Shown: positions 9,943-18,862 of the stretch, piece after piece
Position numbering within the stretch: the stretch's first letter is position 1
Layout of the letters: each line of letters starts with the position of its first letter
Source: Desulfobacula sp.
GTDB lineage: Bacteria > Desulfobacterota > Desulfobacteria > Desulfobacterales > Desulfobacteraceae
Assembly: GCA_023701135.1 (NCBI GenBank)
Contig: JAMPXP010000007.1
Span: 124,001 to 188,000 of the forward strand
DNA length: 64,000 bases
Direction: 5' to 3'
Translations under genes and position numbers: made by a program
Notes under the pieces: generated by a model
Told to the model about the DNA's origin: nothing
What the model saw: only the letters and a program-made list of their open reading frames with translations
Databases searched by the model: none

Positions 9943-10497
9943 ATGAAAAACAAATTTTGGTTAAATGTATTGATGGCAGTTCTTGTTGCAGGGCTTTTCC
10001 TGACGGTTTCATGTGCAAAAAAAGCAGTTGTTTCTGATGCCGGTACCGTATCCGGTGCAGCGACCACAGAAGATCCCAATGCAAAGGCAAAAGCTGAAGC
10101 TGAGAGACTTGCCGCAGAAAAAGCAGCAAAAGAAAAAGCAGCAAAGATGGCTGCTGCAAGAAAGGCCTTTGAAAATGAGGATGTCCATTTTGACTTTGAC
10201 AGTTCAGAATTGACAGCCGCTGCAAAAGCGTTGTTAAAAGACAAAGCAGCATGGTTAACAGAAAACGCTTCCGCAGCCGTCACCATTGAAGGTCATTGTG
10301 ACGAACGCGGTACAACCGAATACAACCTTGCATTGGGCGACCGTCGTGCCACTGCCGTAAAAGCCTATCTGGTAGACATGGGTATCGCTGCCTCCCGCAT
10401 GAACACCATCAGTTACGGCGAAGAAAAACCAATTGATACAGGAAAAACAGAACTCGCCTGGGCCATGAACAGGCGCGCTCATTTTGCCGTTAAGTAG
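9943..10497 (+). CDS. pal: Pal, peptidoglycan-associated lipoprotein
   Basis: A 184-residue lipoprotein. The signal peptide ends in the slightly off-consensus lipobox TVSC with lipidated Cys24. An Ala/Lys/Glu-rich helical linker (about 45-80) precedes an OmpA-like domain: DVHFDFDSSEL, the diaminopimelate-binding NLALGDRRA region, and the terminal NRRAHFAVK. Pal anchors the outer membrane to peptidoglycan and is the final target of the Tol motor. GGGGG-rich RBS aaaaggggg precedes the ATG. Confidence 0.95.
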   Translation: MKNKFWLNVLMAVLVAGLFLTVSCAKKAVVSDAGTVSGAATTEDPNAKAKAEAERLAAEKAAKEKAAKMAAARKAFENEDVHFDFDSSELTAAAKALLKDKAAWLTENASAAVTIEGHCDERGTTEYNLALGDRRATAVKAYLVDMGIAASRMNTISYGEEKPIDTGKTELAWAMNRRAHFAVK

Positions 10498-10519
10498 TCG
10501 ATTGGATATTCGTTAATAA

Positions 10520-10562
10520 ATTCAGGCGCAATGCTTTTATAGATAAAGTATTGCGCCTGAAT
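10520..10562 (+). terminator. Strong hairpin between pal and cpoB
   Basis: ATTCAGGCGCAAT (10520-10532) pairs exactly with ATTGCGCCTGAAT (10550-10562); the stem can extend inward through gctttt/aaagt. No T-run follows and cpoB starts 33 bases later. It probably attenuates transcription or protects the pal message, setting pal expression above cpoB, rather than acting as a complete terminator. Confidence 0.6.
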
Positions 10563-10594
10563 CATTAAGACCTTTTGGCCGGCGGAGTTGGGTT

Positions 10595-11488
10595 ATGAAA
10601 ATTTATCATCTTTTTTGTATTGTAATCGGTTTCCTATTTTTTTACGGATGTGTCGAACCCCAAAAATTTGTAGCCCTTGAAAACCGGGTGGCTGCAATGG
10701 AAATGGAAAGAAAGAAACAATTAAATGCACAGAGTGAAAAAGATAAAGAGCTCGAAACCATTCAGGAAAAAGTAAAGGAAGGAATCAGGCCTGAAGATTA
10801 TGCGGATATGAAATACGATATTAAGGTCCTGAAAGAAAATAATCAAAGGCTTGAGAATGCTTTGGAAGAAATCAATCATAACCTTGGGAATTATAGTAAA
10901 AAGGATAGGGAAGAACTTGAAAAGAGGGTCGAAAGATTAGACAATGCAATTTCCCAGAATTATGAAAAATTAGTTGAGCTGGAAAAGTATCTGGGCCTTG
11001 AGCCATCCCGTGCCTTAGAGACCGCCCCGGGAGAGAAAGCTTCGGTAGACAGGACGGGAGATGAACACAAGGCCGAAAGCAAGCCCCCTGCTTCAGTGGA
11101 ACCCAAAAACGGGAATGAAGAACAGGAATTATATGCGGCTGCAAAAAAAATGTTCGATGAGGGGGATAAAGCCAATGCACGCAACCAGTTTGAAGAGTTT
11201 ATAAAAAAATATCCAAAGTCTGAAAATGCGGATAATGCAAGATTCTGGATTGCCGAAAGCTATTATTCGGAAAAATGGTTTGAAAAAGCAATCCTTGAAT
11301 ATCAAAAAGTTCTTGAAAATTATCCAAAGAGCAATAAGGCTGCCGCATCAAGGCTTAAGCAAGGATATGCATTTTCAGAGCTGGGTGAAAAAGCCAATGC
11401 CAGGCTCATCCTTAATGAATTGTTGAAAAAACATCCGGATTCCAATGAAGCAAAATTTGCCAAGGAAAAATTAAAAAGCTTACAGTAA
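10595..11488 (+). CDS. cpoB: CpoB/YbgF, Tol-Pal associated TPR lipoprotein
   Basis: A 297-residue protein with a signal peptide and lipobox FYGC (Cys19), an extended coiled coil (about 25-130, the trimerisation region of YbgF), a variable linker, and three TPR_6-type repeats at about 175-297 (LYAAAKKMFDEGDKANARN, NARFWIAESYYSEKWFEKA). CpoB couples Tol-Pal energy to septal peptidoglycan synthesis via PBP1B in E. coli. The lipobox is unusual for E. coli CpoB, which is soluble, but common in related deltaproteobacterial proteins. It ends the tol-pal cluster. Confidence 0.9.
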   Translation: MKIYHLFCIVIGFLFFYGCVEPQKFVALENRVAAMEMERKKQLNAQSEKDKELETIQEKVKEGIRPEDYADMKYDIKVLKENNQRLENALEEINHNLGNYSKKDREELEKRVERLDNAISQNYEKLVELEKYLGLEPSRALETAPGEKASVDRTGDEHKAESKPPASVEPKNGNEEQELYAAAKKMFDEGDKANARNQFEEFIKKYPKSENADNARFWIAESYYSEKWFEKAILEYQKVLENYPKSNKAAASRLKQGYAFSELGEKANARLILNELLKKHPDSNEAKFAKEKLKSLQ

Positions 11489-11501: not shown

Positions 11502-11987
11502 ATGATTAAAGTAGTAGGGATTGATCCGGGTCTTGCAGGCACGGGGATAGGCATAGTTCAGGGCAGCCAGAGGGATATCCTGGGTTATTCTTTTGGCAGT
11601 ATCGCCACAGAAGCAAAGGATCCGATTCCTTTCAGGCTTAACAAGATTTATTCCAATATCTTGGATTTCCTCTGTGAACAAAAACCTGATTGTGTGATCA
11701 TAGAGGATATTTACTCCCTTGAAAAATATCCTGAATCCGGTATCATGCTAGGCAAGGTTTCAGGGATCATCCTGCTGGCAGTCTATAAGGCGGGATTAAA
11801 TATGGAAGAGATCCCTGTCCGTGAGGTAAAAAAAATCATCTCCGGAAACGGGAATGCCGACAAGCACCAGATGGAACGGGCCATTCGAAACCAGTTGAAC
11901 CATGGTCAGCCCATCCGCCCTTTCCATGCTTCAGATGCATTGGGGCTGGCGTTAACAGGGTACTACAGGTATAAAAACAGGCCATGA
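11502..11987 (+). CDS. ruvC: RuvC Holliday junction resolvase
   Basis: A 161-residue RNase H-fold endonuclease. Catalytic acidic residues are visible as Asp8 in GIDPGLAGTG, Glu68 in VIIED, and Asp145 in HASDALGLAL, with His142. RuvC cleaves Holliday junctions symmetrically after branch migration by RuvAB. The middle of the protein (SLEKYPESGIMLGKVSG) is more divergent than usual, but the four-carboxylate layout is kept. It overlaps ruvA by four bases. Confidence 0.93.
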   Translation: MIKVVGIDPGLAGTGIGIVQGSQRDILGYSFGSIATEAKDPIPFRLNKIYSNILDFLCEQKPDCVIIEDIYSLEKYPESGIMLGKVSGIILLAVYKAGLNMEEIPVREVKKIISGNGNADKHQMERAIRNQLNHGQPIRPFHASDALGLALTGYYRYKNRP

Positions 11988-12613
11988 TCGGATACCTTGA
12001 AGGATCCATTCTGCATTTTGAGTCGGATGGTATTTTATTATTGGCCGGCCATATCGGCTATGAGGTATTCTTGAACCCCCAGGTTCTTGAGAGAATCAGA
12101 TCACAAAATTCCCATAACGACAGTATTGCTCTCTATATTTATTATCATCAGACCGAACGTCAGCCCAAACCGGTTCTGATCGGTTTCCAATCCCTTGAGG
12201 ATAAAGCTTTTTTTCAGGAATTTATCACCGTTGATGCCATCGGCCCCATGAAAGCCGTAAAGGCAATGGATAAGCCCATAAGCGATATTGCACTGGCCAT
12301 AGAAAAAAAAGACACCCATTTTCTATCGGGGTTGAATGGAATCGGAAAACGGACGGCTGAAAAAATTATTGCAACTCTGAATGGAAAAGTTGAACGATTT
12401 ATTTCTGCTGTTGAAGGCCCCAAGTCTGCAGACGCGCCTCCTATAACGGATGATATCAAGGATATTTGTCAGCAGGTTGAAGATGTGTTGACAGAACAAC
12501 TGGGCCATTCCCTTGCATCGGCAAAAAGGATGGTCAAGGAGGCGTTTGAAAGAAACCCTAGGATTTCAACACCTGAGGCACTTTTCGATGAAATTTATCA
12601 GGAGAATCGATAA
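11984..12613 (+). CDS. ruvA: RuvA Holliday junction binding subunit
   Basis: A 209-residue protein with the N-terminal OB fold ([20 protein letters not shown]), central helix-hairpin-helix segments ([32 protein letters not shown]) and the C-terminal RuvB-contact domain ([16 protein letters not shown]). RuvA tetramers hold the four-way junction open and guide the RuvB rings. It overlaps ruvC by ATGA and is followed by ruvB after two bases. Confidence 0.94.
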
Positions 12614-12615
12614 AT

Positions 12616-13650
12616 ATGGGAGACTCAATACTTTCTTATTCTTCTGATAATTCGAATAGAAAAGGGATAGTCACATCGAAAAAGACACTGGATGAGCTGT
12701 CTTCCGATATCATTTCTTTAAGGCCCACCTGTTTTGAGGATTATATCGGCCAGAAAGATACTGTTGAAACCCTGAAAATTGCCATTCAGGCAGCCAAGAT
12801 GAGAAATGAACCCTTGGAGCATATTCTCCTTCACGGCCCACCCGGGCTGGGGAAAACAACAGTGTCCCATATCATTGCCAATGAAATGGGTAAGAATCTG
12901 ACCGTTACGTCAGGTCCGACCCTGGAGAAAGGCGGTGACCTCATCGGGATTCTGACCAATCTGGGTGAGGGGGATATCCTTTTCATCGATGAAATCCATC
13001 GCATCCCAAAAATCGTTGAAGAATTTTTATACCCTGCCATGGAAGATTTTGCCGTAGATTTTGTGTTTGATAAAGGAATTCACGCAAGAAGTCATCGGTA
13101 TCGCCTGAAACAGTTCGTTCTGATCGGAGCAACGACCCGTGTGGGTCTGTTGTCGTCTCCGTTAAGGGATCGATTCGGAATTTTTCGCACCCTTGATTTT
13201 TATTCGCCGGACCAATTGGTAGTGATTGTCAAACGGTCTGCGGCTATTTTAAATACCATCGTTACGGATGATGGTGCAAAGGAACTATCCAAGAGATCCC
13301 GAGGGACGCCAAGAATTGCCAACCGGCTTTTAAAAAGGGTCAGGGACTATTCGTTGGTCAAATCCCATGGGAGGGTCACCCTCGAAAGTGTCAAGGCTGC
13401 TCTCAGCCTTGAGGGTATTGATCATCTGGGATTAACCTCGCTTGACAGAAATTATCTAAAAACAATCCTGGATTTTTACAAGGGAGGACCGGTCGGGATT
13501 GAAGCCATTGCCGCAACATTGCAGGAAGAAACAGATACTTTGGTGGATGTGGTTGAACCGTTTTTGTTAAAAATCGGTTTGGTCCTTCGAACCTCCAGTG
13601 GCAGAAAAACATCGGAGAAAGCATTTGATCATCTTAAGCTTTATCCATAA
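12616..13650 (+). CDS. ruvB: RuvB branch-migration ATPase
   Basis: A 344-residue AAA+ motor with Walker [10 protein letters not shown] (74-82), Walker [10 protein letters not shown], sensor-1 GATTR and the arginine-finger region SPLRDRFG. A winged-helix DNA-binding domain lies at the C-terminus ([15 protein letters not shown]). It drives branch migration with RuvA. The N-terminal 30 residues are longer than usual and variable. It completes a ruvC-A-B operon, probably continuous with the cell-wall genes that follow. Confidence 0.95.
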
Positions 13651-13678: not shown

Positions 13679-15076
13679 ATGGAAACGAAAGCAAATAAAC
13701 AAAAACAAGTTGGGTTATATCTGCTCATTCTCTGTATGGTCGGTATGATATTTTGTTCAAAAATTTTTGCCGAAGAACAGGCTCACCCGTCTGAAATCAT
13801 TAAGCTGCCGGAAAACGAGAACGCTATTTTAGTTGAAAAGAAAAATCAGACGCTGTTCTTATATCGTTCCAAGGCCGGGGAGGTCCAGATCCAATATAAA
13901 ATTCCCTGTTCCACCGGAGAAACGGCCGGAGTGAAACAGAAAGCCGGTGACAGAAAAACACCGGAGGGGATTTATTTTTTAAAGGATGAGTATGAAGATC
14001 AATACCTGTCTCCGATATATGGAACCAAGGCCTTTCCCTTGGATTACCCGAACCTGATGGATAACAGACTCGGCAGAGACGGATCAGCCATTTGGATACA
14101 CGGCACCAATAAAGTTTTAAAACCCATGGATTCCAATGGGTGTATCGCACTGGAAAATTCAAATATTCAAAAATTGGCGGAATCTATAACTCTGGACTCA
14201 ACTCCGGTTATCCTGGTCCAAGAGGTCAGGCAAATAGACAGGGAAACTCTTGCTAAACATGAGCAACAGATCAGTCTTATGCTGGATCAATGGCTTCAAT
14301 CCGTTGCAAAGGGAAGCTATCATGAGTATTTGTCCTTTTATTCTGATGAATATCTCCCTGAGATTGACTGGTGGACGAAATGGATGCAAATACGCAAAGA
14401 TTCTTCCGGAATCGGTTCAAATTTGAAAATTGAAAGAGACAAAACCGGCATCTATTATCAGGGAGATGTTTTTGTGGTCTTGTTCGATTATTCTTTAGTA
14501 AAAGACAATGAAAAAATTTTCTTAGGAAAAAGGAAATTGTTTCTCGAAAAAAAGGGACAAGCTTATAAAATTATCGGAGAGACATTTCAAAATATCTCAA
14601 AAGAATTTACGGCCTCTCAAACACCTTTACTCGCAGCAGCGTTAAAAGCCGACAAACCGGTTTCGAAAACGGAACCAGAAGCAGGAACAAAAACATTAAC
14701 AGCATCCAAATCCGTCAAGGAAGAAAAATCTGTTCCCACAATCCGGCCCGTTCAGGAAACAGTAAACCAGTGGTTGGCAGCATGGTCTGCAAAAGATATG
14801 GATAAATATGCGTCTTTTTATGCTAATCATTTTTATTCTGACGGAATGAACAAGAAAAAATGGGTTGAAAGAAAGAAAACCATTGCCGGGAAAAATGAGT
14901 TTATCAGAGTGACCGGCAAGAAATTTCAAATCAAGCAGACAAATGATACATGCGAGGTTATATTTTTTCAGGACTATAAATCCAGCGGACTATCAACTCA
15001 GGGTGTAAAAAAGTTAAATCTGACGAACAAAGGCGGATCATGGAAGATATATCAAGAGAGCTGGAACGAGAAATAG
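13679..15076 (+). CDS. Csd6-like L,D-transpeptidase-fold peptidase with two NTF2-like domains
   Basis: A 465-residue exported protein with a signal segment at about 10-32. A YkuD (L,D-transpeptidase) domain covers about 45-185, with HGTN (His141) and SNGCIAL (Cys155) as the catalytic pair. Two NTF2/SnoaL-like domains follow: about 195-320 (MLDQWLQSVAKGSYHEYLSF) and about 360-465 (VNQWLAAWSAKDMDKYASFY). The YkuD plus NTF2 architecture is that of Helicobacter Csd6, an L,D-carboxypeptidase that trims muropeptides for helical shape. Here the NTF2 unit is doubled. I chose ATG 13679 because it leads into the signal peptide; an in-frame ATG at 13598 inside ruvB would add 27 basic residues. Confidence 0.8.
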   Translation: METKANKQKQVGLYLLILCMVGMIFCSKIFAEEQAHPSEIIKLPENENAILVEKKNQTLFLYRSKAGEVQIQYKIPCSTGETAGVKQKAGDRKTPEGIYFLKDEYEDQYLSPIYGTKAFPLDYPNLMDNRLGRDGSAIWIHGTNKVLKPMDSNGCIALENSNIQKLAESITLDSTPVILVQEVRQIDRETLAKHEQQISLMLDQWLQSVAKGSYHEYLSFYSDEYLPEIDWWTKWMQIRKDSSGIGSNLKIERDKTGIYYQGDVFVVLFDYSLVKDNEKIFLGKRKLFLEKKGQAYKIIGETFQNISKEFTASQTPLLAAALKADKPVSKTEPEAGTKTLTASKSVKEEKSVPTIRPVQETVNQWLAAWSAKDMDKYASFYANHFYSDGMNKKKWVERKKTIAGKNEFIRVTGKKFQIKQTNDTCEVIFFQDYKSSGLSTQGVKKLNLTNKGGSWKIYQESWNEK

Positions 15077-15963
15077 CCAAATCCAGACCCAAACCTTTCA
15101 GGAAAAACAGAAAAATTAAAATTCTGATTGTGGACGATTTTGGAAAGGTTATATCCGGCAATCATATAAAAATTTTATTTATGCTTTTATTAGTTATCAG
15201 CATTGTGTCGTCTTTAACTTCAGCCATATTTATTTATAAATATTTTGTTTTCTCCCAGGAATCGGTTTCCTATAAGGATCGCTTCCTTTCATCTGAAAAA
15301 AAACTCAATGAATTGACCAGTGAAAAAGAAGTATTGATGGCAAGGCTTGTGATTCTTGGAAAGGAGCCGGGTATTGAAAAAAATATGGAAAAAGATGAAA
15401 AGCCAATGTCAAATACTTTAGAAGAAAAAAACCGAACAACTTCCAAGCCGTCCGGATCACCGGAAAATGATGACGGAACACCCTCAAATTTTCAGTCTGG
15501 CAATGAAAGAGAAAAATCGGCAGGTGCTGCTTTAACTGATCCGGTGGCAGAGGAGGATGCCACTCATCGGACATCAGAGACCAAAGCAATGAATAAAACA
15601 GTTTTGATTGAGAAATTTGCAGTAATCAGAAACAGGGATGGAAAAGATCTATTGGTGCGGTTTGATATCAGAAATATTTCAAAAGACCAGAAGGATGTGT
15701 CTGGAAGAATATTTACAATTTTAAAGCCGGATAACGGCATTGAAAATGAATGGCTTGTTGTGCCGAACGTAGCGCTTAAAAATGGAATTCCTTCAGAACA
15801 TCAAAAGGGACAGTATTTTTCCATCGCTCACTTTAAGCCGGTAAAATTCAGAATAAAAAGTGAAATCGATCCTGATTTTTATAAAAAGGCTTCCATTTTC
15901 ATTTTTAGCAGTGAGGGAGAGCTTATTTTTGAAAAATTGATTGACATCACTGAGGCGGAGTAA
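15040..15963 (+). CDS. Single-pass membrane protein of the putative cell-shape module
   Basis: A 307-residue bitopic protein. It has a basic cytoplasmic N-terminus (1-42, rich in Arg/Lys), a membrane helix at 43-68, a short coiled coil (about 78-105), a disordered Ser/Glu/Thr-rich linker (about 115-185), and a periplasmic beta-rich domain (about 195-305, VLIEKFAVIRNRDGKDLLVR). I recognise no named family. Its start overlaps the Csd6-like gene by 37 bases, and the M99 peptidase and bactofilin follow. The topology resembles Helicobacter Csd5, which ties bactofilin to the wall, though no SH3 motif is apparent. The adaptor role is inferred from context only. Confidence 0.75.
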   Translation: MEDISRELEREIAKSRPKPFRKNRKIKILIVDDFGKVISGNHIKILFMLLLVISIVSSLTSAIFIYKYFVFSQESVSYKDRFLSSEKKLNELTSEKEVLMARLVILGKEPGIEKNMEKDEKPMSNTLEEKNRTTSKPSGSPENDDGTPSNFQSGNEREKSAGAALTDPVAEEDATHRTSETKAMNKTVLIEKFAVIRNRDGKDLLVRFDIRNISKDQKDVSGRIFTILKPDNGIENEWLVVPNVALKNGIPSEHQKGQYFSIAHFKPVKFRIKSEIDPDFYKKASIFIFSSEGELIFEKLIDITEAE

Positions 15964-15991
15964 GCCCTTGATTAAAAACGGTTCAACCATA

Positions 15992-17449
15992 ATGAAAATC
16001 ATCATGTGTCTGTTTATCTCTTCATTCCTTTTCTGCGGGCAAGCTTTGTCCAGCCAGAAGACCCACACGGTCTTTTTCGAAGGAGAGGAAAATGAGCTTC
16101 ATGTTTATCGAATCAAGGGGACTCAGTCCGGTAAAACATTGCTCATTATCGGTGGAATTCAGGGAGATGAGCCGGGAGGATACCTTGCAGCGGATTTCTA
16201 TGCGGATTTCCTGCTTGAAAAAGGAAATCTCATTGTAGTCCCAAGGGCAAACTTCCCTTCTATTTTGAAAATGGAAAGACAGATTAATCAGGATATGAAT
16301 CGAAAATTCCTGGATGATAATATTTCCAATTATGAGACAAAGGTTGTCGGCGTTCTGAAAAAACTCATTTGTGAAAGCGATTGCTTTTTGAATCTTCATG
16401 AAGGTTCTGGTTTTTATTCCCAAAACTGGGAGAGCGAAGAAAGGAATCCTGAAAAATTCGGTCAATCCATCATTATCGATAATTCTGTTCTTCAGGGCAA
16501 AGAGATCGATCTTGAGAAGATGGCGGGGAGGGTTGTTGAAAAGATTAATGCAGGGATTGAAAACAAAGGACATTTTTTTCATGTGAATAACCACATGACC
16601 AATCACCCGGACTCGATTCATAAGGAGCAGTTGAGGTCTGCAACCTATTATGCTTACAATACCTGTAAAATTCCGGCCTTTGGAATAGAATCGGCCAAAA
16701 TACTCCCCTTGGAGCAAAAAGTTAGGCAGCATATCCATGCCATCAATGGATTCATGGATATGCTGGAGATTATTCCCAAAAATCCTAATATTGATTTAAA
16801 AAAACCGGAAATGCAGTATATGATCATTTCCGTCAATAATTCGATTCCGGTTGTTGTTGAAGAAATGCAGCGGCTGAAAATCAATAAGGGGGATACCATT
16901 AAAGTCCATGATATTGTCGCAAATTATGAACGAGGACTTAGTGTGGATGTCCTAGGGCTGGGAAATCAATTTAATGATCTGAAAAATGAACTGGTTGTTC
17001 ATGAATCCACTCGAATTGAAGTCAAAAAGGATTTTTATAAATGCGGGAGTGTATTCATTGATATTGATCCTCAGGCATCAAAGGGGTTAAGCAAGGTTTC
17101 GGTCGTCGAAACTGAAGCGGTATCGGATTTGAGATTTAAGCTCAGAATTAACAATGCGCGTTTATTTGCCGATAATAACAGTCGTGTGACGGTGCGCATG
17201 GGAGATATATTGGTCATTGAAGACATTCTTTCAGGTAAAGTTGATCCGTCGAACTATGTTGTTAATTTTAAAGGATTTGTCGGTAATTTGGATAATAATA
17301 GCGGTGAAGATCGCGGGTATGCCATTCCTATATCCGAAAAGTCACTGTTAAAACGTTACTCTGAGGGTAATAAGGGTAAAATTTACCATGTGATAACAAC
17401 GGTGGACGGAAAAGAAGTCGGGAAAATTTTTATTGATGTCCAGCCATAA
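15992..17449 (+). CDS. M99-family (Csd4-like) peptidoglycan D,L-carboxypeptidase
   Basis: A 485-residue exported protein (signal peptide about 1-21). The zinc site reads GGIQGDEPGG with Gln57 and Glu60, then NLHEGSGFY with His136. The glutamine in place of the usual histidine is the hallmark of Helicobacter Csd4, the M14-like M99 peptidase that cuts tripeptides to dipeptides and sets helical shape. Beta-rich domains occupy about 300-485, as in Csd4. ATG 15992 is chosen because it begins the signal peptide; an earlier ATG at 15941 lies inside the preceding gene. Bactofilin follows within 20 bases. Confidence 0.85.
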   Translation: MKIIMCLFISSFLFCGQALSSQKTHTVFFEGEENELHVYRIKGTQSGKTLLIIGGIQGDEPGGYLAADFYADFLLEKGNLIVVPRANFPSILKMERQINQDMNRKFLDDNISNYETKVVGVLKKLICESDCFLNLHEGSGFYSQNWESEERNPEKFGQSIIIDNSVLQGKEIDLEKMAGRVVEKINAGIENKGHFFHVNNHMTNHPDSIHKEQLRSATYYAYNTCKIPAFGIESAKILPLEQKVRQHIHAINGFMDMLEIIPKNPNIDLKKPEMQYMIISVNNSIPVVVEEMQRLKINKGDTIKVHDIVANYERGLSVDVLGLGNQFNDLKNELVVHESTRIEVKKDFYKCGSVFIDIDPQASKGLSKVSVVETEAVSDLRFKLRINNARLFADNNSRVTVRMGDILVIEDILSGKVDPSNYVVNFKGFVGNLDNNSGEDRGYAIPISEKSLLKRYSEGNKGKIYHVITTVDGKEVGKIFIDVQP

Positions 17450-17468
17450 GCAATTGAGGAGATTTAGA

Positions 17469-17879
17469 GTGGGAATAAAAAACAGCAAGAATCTTTCAAT
17501 CATCGATAAAGAGTTGAAAATAGAAGGCTCGATATCAAGCAGTGGAAAGTTGATTATCAAAGGCCAGGTCACTGGGACAATTGAAGGAGACGTGGTGATC
17601 ATAGCTGAAGACGGACAGGTGAATTCCAGCTCGACAAAAGTATCCAGTATTACCATTGGAGGGAAGTTTAAAGGTGAAGTGACTGCTTCAAAGGAGCTGA
17701 TCATTCTTTCGACGGGAACGTGTGAGGGAAAGGTTGAATGCAAGGATCTTATCGTTGAAAACGGAGGCGTTCTAAACGCTGAAGTAACCTGTAAAACAAC
17801 CAGTAAACTTTCGACGGACAAAGATTCAAGACCCTTCGAGCCCCATGTTATAAGAGATAAGAAACAAATAGAACTTTAA
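17469..17879 (+). CDS. Bactofilin (CcmA-like polymer-forming cytoskeletal protein)
   Basis: A 136-residue DUF583/bactofilin protein with a short N-terminal tail (SLSIIDKELKIEG-like) and a right-handed beta-helix of repeating GxI/V turns (LIIKGQVTGTIEGDVVI, SITIGGKFKGEVTASKEL, LIVENGGVLNAEV). Bactofilins self-assemble without nucleotide and position cell-wall enzymes; CcmA in Helicobacter works with the Csd peptidases. The GTG at 17469 is chosen because GAGGAG (17456-17461) is seven bases upstream. Last gene of the putative shape module. Confidence 0.9.
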   Translation: MGIKNSKNLSIIDKELKIEGSISSSGKLIIKGQVTGTIEGDVVIIAEDGQVNSSSTKVSSITIGGKFKGEVTASKELIILSTGTCEGKVECKDLIVENGGVLNAEVTCKTTSKLSTDKDSRPFEPHVIRDKKQIEL

Positions 17880-17913: not shown

Positions 17914-17952
17914 TATCCCTGATTGTGTTTATGAAAAGGAGTGGTGAAAAAA

Positions 17953-18387
17953 TTGAAAAAATATACATACAGTGCCAAAAGATCTGATAATAAAGAGAAC
18001 TGGTATGTCATCGATGCCAAGGACAAGATTCTTGGGAGACTAGCATCACGGGTGGCATATCGAATTCGCGGAAAGAATAATCCTCTTTTTTCACCCCATG
18101 TTGATACAGGGGACTGGGTGATTATTATCAATGCTGATAAAATTCGCATGACGGGAAATAAATTGGATCAAAAGAAATATTACCGCCATTCCGGATATAT
18201 TGGCGGGCTAACGACGGAGACGGCAAAAGAACTGCTTGCAAAAAAGCCGGAAGAGGTTATTAAAAAAGCAGTTCGCGGGATGCTACCCAAAAATCGTCTT
18301 GGCAGGAAACTTGGCAAAAAATTGTTTGTTTACGCAGGTGATCAGCATCCCCATGCTGCTCAAAAACCTGATGCTATTGAAATTTAA
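17953..18387 (+). CDS. rplM: Ribosomal protein uL13
   Basis: A 144-residue large-subunit protein with [16 protein letters not shown], the [13 protein letters not shown] block, [11 protein letters not shown] and [17 protein letters not shown], all uL13 hallmarks. I prefer TTG 17953 because the product then begins MKKYTYSAK, matching the usual 142-145 residue length. GTG codons at 17941 and 17944 are in frame but abut the AAAGGAG at 17934-17940. rpsI follows after 24 bases, the universal pairing. Confidence 0.95.
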
Positions 18388-18411
18388 GTAAAAAGGACGC
18401 GGTAATTATCA

Positions 18412-18807
18412 ATGGATAGCGGAAATATATTTTACGCGACGGGTAAGAGAAAAGGGTCTGTTGCCAAAGTATGGTTGGTGCCTGGCAATGGAAAAATAGT
18501 GATTAATGATTTAGACGTGAATGAATATTTTGAGCTGAATGTTGCAAAAGATTTATTGACCTCACCTTTAGTCCTTACCGAAAAAAGTGATGCGTTTGAC
18601 GTCAAAGCCACAGTCATGGGCGGCGGGAAATCCGGCCAAGCCGGTGCCATCCGTCTCGGCGTCTCCAAGGCGCTTGTGATTCTTGATCCTGATCTGAGAG
18701 GGGTGTTGAAAAGCGCAGGTTTCCTCACTAGGGACTCAAGGCAGAAAGAGCGTAAAAAATACGGTAAAAAGGGTGCAAGAGCCAGTTTCCAGTTTTCAAA
18801 AAGATAG
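18412..18807 (+). CDS. rpsI: Ribosomal protein uS9
   Basis: A 131-residue small-subunit protein with [54 protein letters not shown] and the terminal FSKR that reaches the P-site tRNA. It is co-transcribed with rplM and followed by a strong terminator. Confidence 0.97.
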
Positions 18808-18835
18808 CCGTTTTTTATATCTTACAATCATCAGG

Positions 18836-18862
18836 AAGGGGCAATCTGTTTGCCCCTTTTTT
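18836..18862 (+). terminator. Intrinsic terminator of rplM-rpsI
   Basis: AAGGGGCAA (18836-18844) pairs with TTGCCCCTT (18850-18858) around a 5-base loop, followed directly by a T-run to 18862: a textbook Rho-independent terminator 29 bases after rpsI. The sbcB start is only 18 bases beyond it. Confidence 0.92.

Follow-up and report, generated by a model that had tools for sequence, protein, structure and literature searches.

A conserved cluster of a bactofilin gene, two putative wall carboxypeptidase genes and a candidate membrane adaptor gene in Desulfobacula

The proteins encoded at the locus

A stretch of 64,000 nucleotides from a Desulfobacula sp. genome (GCA_023701135.1, contig JAMPXP010000007.1, positions 124,001 to 188,000; called the window throughout, with coordinates counted from its first letter) contains four genes, designated A to D, for a YkuD protein with NTF2-like domains, a bitopic membrane protein, an M99 carboxypeptidase-like protein and a bactofilin. 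According to the open reading frames of the window, all four are located head to tail on the plus strand and occupy positions 13679-17879 (Table 1); in the 4.8 Mb genome (G000), the locus is on contig 12. The start of B overlaps the end of A by 37 bases, C begins 28 bases past B, and D begins 19 bases past C, in agreement with an initial annotation that had described the genes as overlapping or lying within 30 bases of each other. The last distance applies to the GTG start of D at 17469, which is favoured by a GAGGAG motif upstream and by the length of the relatives; an ATG at 17436 is the alternative.

Table 1. Features of the cluster and its flanks in the window
Feature	Coordinates	Strand	Description
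Gene A	13679..15076	+	signal peptide (by eye); YkuD L,D-carboxypeptidase-type domain, residues 48-178; two NTF2-like domains, the second at 359-460
Second (C-terminal) NTF2 domain of A	14753..15058	+	Pfam Cds6_C
Gene B	15040..15963	+	bitopic protein, putative adaptor; 307 amino acids; no Pfam or NCBIfam model
B, cytoplasmic beta-hairpin (residues about 24-40), transmembrane helix and start of long helix	15109..15240	+	AlphaFold model; membrane span by eye; likeness to LmdC-type M23 proteins
B, periplasmic immunoglobulin-like (Ig-like) beta-sandwich, residues 188-302	15601..15945	+	AlphaFold model, predicted local distance difference test score (pLDDT) about 90 or more; fold search
Gene C	15992..17449	+	M99 D,L-carboxypeptidase-like; signal peptide; C-terminal Ig-like region
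Gene D	17469..17879	+	bactofilin, about 136 amino acids; no MFxK-type membrane-targeting start
ruvC-ruvA-ruvB	11502..13650	+	28 bases before A; ruvB by Pfam, ruvC and ruvA named from sequence
rplM-rpsI	17941..18807	+	ribosomal protein genes directly 3' of D; named from sequence
Terminator-like stem	18833-18861		after rplM-rpsI

Relatives were analyzed in 198 genomes drawn evenly from the phylum, in 86 genomes of the same family, and at the best 80 of 238 relatives of C, a set that is biased to close kin and overlaps with the phylum sample (judged by length, loci L211 and L217 look like the contigs of L058 and L063).

The domains of A named in the initial annotation were recovered above the Pfam cut-offs: a YkuD domain (2e-19) is followed by Csd6-type NTF2 domains, with two stretches matching Cds6_C (9e-20), which is the arrangement of Csd6, Pgp2 and Bd1075. 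No other Cds6_C match exists in the window genome at E<=0.001. The catalytic stretch, HGTNKVLKPMDSNGCIAL (HGT..SNGCIAL), retains the catalytic His and Cys and has an Ala instead of an Arg two places past the Cys, as in Csd6, Pgp2 and YafK. In the description of the Bdellovibrio enzyme, this Ala is common to YafK-like and Csd6-like enzymes, and Bd1075 itself has a Val (PMC8938487). The nearest solved structure in a phmmer search was Bd1075 (7o21, 6e-40), followed by Pgp2 (6xj7) and Csd6 (4xzz). Thus, the term "Csd6-like" used initially holds for the domain content of A, whereas its closest solved structure is that of Bd1075, not Csd6. Judged from these matches, A is predicted to be an L,D-carboxypeptidase of the Csd6/Bd1075 type that would shorten tetrapeptides to tripeptides.

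C matched the Pfam profile Peptidase_M99 at 4e-39 (135 bits, cut-off 27), as expected from the initial annotation, and the M99_C profile only at 0.03; it is the sole M99 protein of the window genome (E<=0.001). Residues Q58, E61 and H137, which form a QxxE..H metal site, as well as R97, R105 and E234, are invariant in 16 proteins. By eye, through the alignment, they were mapped to Gln46, Glu49, His128, Arg86, Arg94 and Glu222 of Csd4, residues described for that enzyme (PMC4220969). Compared with Csd4 of Helicobacter pylori, C scored 113 bits, over the catalytic domain only, whereas a Csd4-type M99 protein of the same phylum scored 353 bits over most of its length. Moreover, separate Csd4-type genes are present in 17 family genomes, nine of which hold both the operon type and the Csd4 type. 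Orthology of C to Csd4 was therefore rejected: the M99 part of the initial "Csd4-like" label stands, and by sequence C is a member of a sister subfamily of Csd4. No bactofilin match was found within 20 kb of any of the 17 Csd4-type family genes on the same contig, contig ends not being allowed for. Csd4 has been reported to act on tripeptides (PMC3310797), and C is predicted to be a D,L-carboxypeptidase that would cut tripeptides to dipeptides.

The initially proposed bactofilin D has the expected domain (Pfam Bactofilin, 3e-20, 72.7 bits, cut-off 27.9) and is the only bactofilin found in the window genome at E<=0.001. A simple motif scan, for which start sites are uncertain, detected no MFxK-type start in D. 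Such a start was found in 3 of 72 bactofilins of loci L142-L221, in none of 20 of loci L222-L241, in 7 of 15 from M99 loci of the phylum, and in 11 of 40 other phylum bactofilins. It is present in L058, L063 and L071, where D lies behind an M23 gene, and in L066, L067 and L068, where D lies upstream of A. The missing motif is a weak hint that B may serve as the membrane anchor of D. This hint is weakened by the operon bactofilin of L069, which has a MWxK start, and by L215, where D is located upstream of A and is not among the three motif matches of its set. In addition, a membrane-targeting start has been described as not obligatory in this phylum (PMC12448750).

B matched no Pfam or NCBIfam model above cut-off (the nearest was DUF5067, 0.05), and Pfam accordingly gave no M23 domain of the kind that LmdC-type peptidases possess. 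The AlphaFold model comprises a short helix, a hairpin at residues 30-38 (strands 30-31 and 37-38, low to middling confidence), a single helix, residues 40 to 107, within which the membrane span lies, then a disordered linker and, at 188-302, a beta-sandwich modelled with confidence. This corresponds to a single-pass protein with a short cytoplasmic N-terminus, a topology predicted from sequence and consistent with the bitopic protein of the initial annotation. In a fold search, the predicted periplasmic sandwich resembled Ig-like domains of GH2 enzymes (Z up to 10.9), a common fold that indicates no function. When solved structures were searched with the B sequence, membrane and coiled-coil matches appeared among the best 60 of 118. 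A Csd5-type membrane link had been proposed initially. Its single-pass architecture was recovered, but this evidence does not identify B as Csd5: the model and the fold search supported neither Csd5 nor an SH3 protein, no SH3 domain was among the matches listed in this comparison, of which Csd5 itself was not part, and B has a predicted Ig-like domain and an LmdC-like N-terminus. Reportedly, only H. pylori and H. acinonychis possess Csd5 (PMC3310797).

A profile built from a 19-member alignment of the B family matched in 69 of the 198 phylum genomes (E<=0.001, N-terminal-only matches included). In three loci (L066, L067 and L068), the periplasmic domain of B is fused to the C-terminus of A, as detected with a profile free of these fusions (E 1e-24 to 1e-28). 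Pairs of A and B lacking both C and D occur in the stretches read of L261, L262, L263 and L265. In two of these (L261:755-4016, L262:2788-6094), a Csd6-like protein of 800-840 amino acids with repeated domains is encoded directly 5' of the B relative, in a family with an unlinked Csd4-type M99 gene.

The gene order in relatives

M99 proteins were detected in 42 of the 198 phylum genomes (40 above the cut-off), Cds6_C in 54, and bactofilins in at least 128. All 40 M99 loci above the cut-off (39 fetched loci and the window) were examined, and D was sought inside the loci themselves rather than via the phylum list of bactofilins. A is located upstream of C, with or without B in between, in 27 of the 40 loci; in 21, a stand-alone B gene separates the two. 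The cluster includes D in 14 loci from 8 families: in 9 of these D follows C, in 2 it comes after C with an M23 gene in between, and in 3 it precedes A.

The close kin include records of Desulfobacula, Desulfocicer and the cultivable Desulfospira joergensenii DSM 10085, which has the cluster (L171). Of the 80 loci, 50 extended 2.6 kb or more upstream of C and 1.5 kb or more downstream. In these well-flanked loci the order A-B-C-D was by far the most common (40 loci); the others were A-B-C-M23-D (2), D-A-B-C (1), B-C-D (3), A-C-D (1) and A-C (3), so that all four genes were present in 43 of the 50. The 37-base overlap between A and B recurs unchanged in 41 of 61 pairs. The idea of a four-gene module, put forward in the initial annotation, thus survives the comparison with relatives.

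The co-occurrence across genomes points in the same direction. In the phylum, Cds6_C was found in 39 of the 42 genomes with M99 and in 15 of the 156 others (p 2e-25), and in the family in 38 of 42 versus 2 of 44 (p 3e-17), p-values that overstate the independence of the genomes because these are related. Bactofilins were found in 42 of 42 family genomes with M99 versus 24 of 44 others. The operon-type M99 is present in 34 of the 86 family genomes, and in 33 of these, judged from the coordinates, a bactofilin is encoded within about 2 kb; in the single exception the M99 match lies 736 bases from a contig end. On the locus counts in phylum and family, a chance neighbourhood was rejected.

Two genera of family f1, g147 and g152, are natural material for a comparison of cell shapes. 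One has neither M99 nor bactofilin in 10 of 10 sampled genomes, several of them incomplete; in the other, 11 of 13 genomes have both or neither.

Loci that lack the M99 gene

Of 32 family genomes with a bactofilin and no operon-type M99, 19 were analyzed. B lies directly before D in 18 of these 19 C-less loci, and A is present in 8; one of the 18, L222, has only a C-terminal remnant of B and may represent a frameshift or a pseudogene. In L225, L226, L230, L231 and L223, the latter at a contig end, B is shortened to the helix, the hairpin, the membrane span and the rod (113 to 132 residues), and D starts at most 81 bases behind it. The C-less loci are not assembly accidents, as they stem from 19 genomes, include B-D alone in single-contig assemblies (G225, G252), and contain A genes that stop cleanly behind the first NTF2 domain. 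When C was mapped as present or absent onto a quick RuvABC tree of 57 loci, 7 changes were required, and at least 4 of these are forced by well-supported branches. Since C is present in all 20 rows outside the clade that holds every C-less row, the changes are read as repeated losses.

In the eight C-less loci that have retained A, the second NTF2 domain tracks an M99 partner. A ends cleanly after the first NTF2 domain in six of them, from two parts of the tree, and these genomes have no M99 match at all. Both NTF2 domains are kept in the remaining two, the genomes of which hold an unlinked Csd4-type M99. B stays with D where C is gone, and the B-D pair is stable. Pairs of B and D lacking A and C are also found in another family (L268, L269 and L270); the arrangement is M23-D-B in L091 and A-B-D in L266.

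The amino-terminal segment of B

In B, a predicted hairpin precedes the membrane helix as in LmdC-type M23 proteins. Bactofilin reportedly recruits LmdC only if the conserved cytoplasmic hairpin is present, and the peptide from the cytoplasmic N-terminus binds bactofilin at about 15 micromolar (PMC10945521). Twenty matches to the B profile are N-terminal only and include the hairpin (19 were fetched, and the twentieth is L047, already in the set; 15 further weak matches, which start later in B, lie outside it). Thirteen of them are LmdC-type M23 proteins (12 of the 19 fetched, and L047). Three of these 13 are encoded directly 5' of a bactofilin gene, and so are two matching proteins of 101 and 111 amino acids (L244, L256). 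A profile-profile comparison of the N-terminus of B with 20 M23 N-termini yielded P 7e-8, a score never attained when the columns that precede the membrane span were shuffled 200 times; this similarity is partly circular because 12 of the 20 M23 sequences had been picked with the B profile.

Small proteins of about 100-110 amino acids that consist only of a hairpin, a membrane helix and a coiled coil are encoded directly 5' of a bactofilin gene at L244:1007-1312, L256:970-1305 and L076:3154-3459; they are possible stand-alone bactofilin anchors. In L058:5721-9620 and L063:4236-8137, an LmdC-type M23 gene is inserted between C and D. The resulting five-gene set encodes an L,D- and a D,L-carboxypeptidase, a membrane protein, an M23 peptidase and a bactofilin, and thereby covers the kinds of component that make up the shape set of H. 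pylori. L071, a near relative of these two loci, has B, M23 and D, and no C was recognised there. The M23 proteins were recognised by motif, and Pfam confirmed those of L058 and L091. In a strict motif scan of 40 loci at the top-scoring bactofilins, an M23 gene adjoined the bactofilin gene in 2; the scan missed the case of L091.

Discussion

The four genes very likely form a module. We consider it probable that this is a bactofilin-directed wall-trimming module, in which D recruits, via B, a two-step pair of enzymes, A and then C. D would polymerise under the inner membrane. B, which quite likely acts as an adaptor, would dock directly on D with its cytoplasmic hairpin, cross the membrane, and present its Ig-like domain in the periplasm at the end of the long helix and a flexible linker. 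There, the Ig-like domain could gather or position A, and C as well, either by way of A or next to it. A would cut tetrapeptides to tripeptides, and C would then cut these to dipeptides. Trimming would be confined to the wall above the filament, altering local wall growth and thus cell form, with curvature, an ovoid form or the pole as possible outcomes. A role in curvature as such is a tentative proposal.

Several observations weigh against such a module. In the phylum, 9 of the 40 M99 loci have A-B-C without D (one of them is cut by a contig edge behind C), 4 consist of A-C with neither B nor D, and in 13 C has no neighbouring A. In the family sample, M99 occurs without Cds6_C in G227 and G230 (Csd4-type M99), G268 and G282, and Cds6_C without M99 in G215, an assembly of 1180 contigs with Cds6_C beside a bactofilin, and in G249. 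B relatives are found without A, C and D in the stretches read of L264 and L267, and full-length B also occurs in loci that lack both A and C; the periplasmic domain is therefore not only an enzyme dock. A and C may also reach the periplasm independently and make no contact with B. The likeness of B to LmdC was weaker when M23 sets found without B were used, unlike the 20 sequences of which 12 had been found with the B profile: one set gave P 0.028, with the forward direction above all 100 shuffle sets and a failed reverse control (49 of 100), and for another, P was 0.0037 and 7 of 100 shuffles scored equally well.

A rival reading is a conserved but loosely linked envelope operon, in which A and C are periplasmic enzymes of wall recycling or maintenance and B and D a separate bactofilin scaffold unit that is merely co-transcribed. 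The persistence of B-D pairs without A and C, the clusters without D and the solitary B genes are all compatible with it. However, the fusion of the B domain to A in three loci is difficult to reconcile with two separate units, and the A-B pairs lacking D or C indicate that B links both sides; moreover, in the eight C-less loci that have A, its second NTF2 domain is kept or missing in step with M99. A merely loose operon thus appears unlikely. Even less probable is that A is not an L,D-carboxypeptidase at all but a YafK/DpaA-type amidase that frees a lipoprotein from the wall. LdtF_DpaA_YafK is indeed the best NCBIfam match of A, yet at 35.6 bits versus a cut-off of 365, and the Ala past the Cys is shared by both enzyme types; on the other hand, the L,D-carboxypeptidase Bd1075 is by far the best solved structure, the NTF2 domains are of the Csd6 type, and A co-occurs with M99, the family of the tripeptide-cleaving Csd4.

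A different question is whether the bactofilin-directed module serves a morphogenetic task other than curvature, such as an ovoid shape, the pole or the division site, which would change only the final phenotype. This has nearly an even chance. We take Desulfobacula and Desulfocicer to be oval or coccoid and Desulfospira joergensenii to be curved, and matches were found in all of them; a literature search on the cell shape of Desulfospira and Desulfobacula retrieved nothing usable. The OmpA-family and tetratricopeptide repeat (TPR) genes upstream of ruv would also suit another task. Curvature is favoured by reports from several species in which a curved or helical shape depends on Csd4, Csd6, Bd1075 or a bactofilin-M23 system (PMC3310797, PMC8938487, PMC10945521).

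Bactofilins recruit M23 endopeptidases and a wall synthase, and the pairing of a bactofilin with a wall hydrolase is already known; what is new here is B as a putative link between a bactofilin and a pair of carboxypeptidases. Gene pairs of a bactofilin and an M23 peptidase have been well documented (PMC10945521); Csd4 has been reported from delta- and epsilonproteobacteria (PMC3310797), and Bd1075 from Bdellovibrio (PMC8938487). In open-access titles and abstract openings, no description of the four-gene cluster or of B was found among the matches listed; the subscription literature lay mostly outside this search.

The LmdC module of Hyphomonas neptunium and Rhodospirillum rubrum, as described in PMC10945521, resembles the window locus in that a bactofilin gene adjoins the gene of a bitopic protein with a hairpin and a membrane helix, and, as predicted for the window locus, in the coupling of wall hydrolysis to a filament. 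In contrast, B has an Ig-like domain instead of M23, the hydrolases are separate carboxypeptidases (A bears the domain in three loci), and an M23 gene lies inside such a cluster only in some relatives. According to the initial annotation, the genes for Csd6, Csd4 and CcmA are scattered in H. pylori. The Csd4-Csd5-Csd6-CcmA set has the same types of component, namely D,L- and L,D-carboxypeptidases, a single-pass membrane protein and a bactofilin; unlike it, the window genes are clustered, C belongs to a sister subfamily of Csd4, and kinship of B with Csd5 is unsupported. Bd1075, the NTF2 domain of which is reported to target the enzyme to the convex face (PMC8938487), differs from A, which has two NTF2 domains and sits in a bactofilin cluster. 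In Campylobacter jejuni, which has Pgp1 and Pgp2, bactofilin gene 1104 lies downstream of, and overlaps, the wall hydrolase gene 1105; there, however, the partner is an M23 peptidase, and the account in PMC10151779 does not place M99 or Csd6 genes in that cluster.

A more far-reaching possibility, to which we assign somewhat less than even chances, is that B represents a new class of interchangeable bactofilin adaptors. These would share with LmdC-type endopeptidases a docking segment of hairpin, membrane helix and rod, which in evolution has been joined to an M23 enzyme or to an Ig-like domain that holds enzymes, or has stayed bare. A filament, maybe without an anchor of its own, would run a two-step carboxypeptidase line, and the second NTF2 domain of A would be the hand-over point to M99. 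If true, this would explain how Csd6- and Csd4-type carboxypeptidases are aimed by a cytoplasmic filament. The Bdellovibrio paper describes targeting to the side wall in general as still open (PMC8938487), and for the curvature-setting carboxypeptidases Csd4, Csd6 and Bd1075 the question is how they come to lie on one side of a cell. Here, one locus would tie such enzymes to a bactofilin via a small adaptor, and natural deletions and fusions make the question of placement directly testable. Overall, the four genes appear to provide sulphate-reducing bacteria and their relatives with a conserved cell-wall sculpting kit, by which trimming could be aimed at one site of the cell.

Flanking genes

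The ruvC-ruvA-ruvB and rplM-rpsI genes flank the cluster in many relatives as well. In a scan of the window, terminator-like stems were no more frequent than expected by chance, and promoter-like sites were somewhat above chance. Just 5' of ruvC, positions 9943-11488 hold an OmpA-family (Pal-like) gene and a TPR gene, the latter presumably CpoB-like. From the OmpA-family gene and the TPR gene through the ruv genes and the trimming cluster to rplM-rpsI, all genes point the same way in a single long run. A gene for an S-adenosylmethionine hydroxide adenosyltransferase is located between ruvB and A in two further families of this order (L043:11193-12008, L069:10931-11740).

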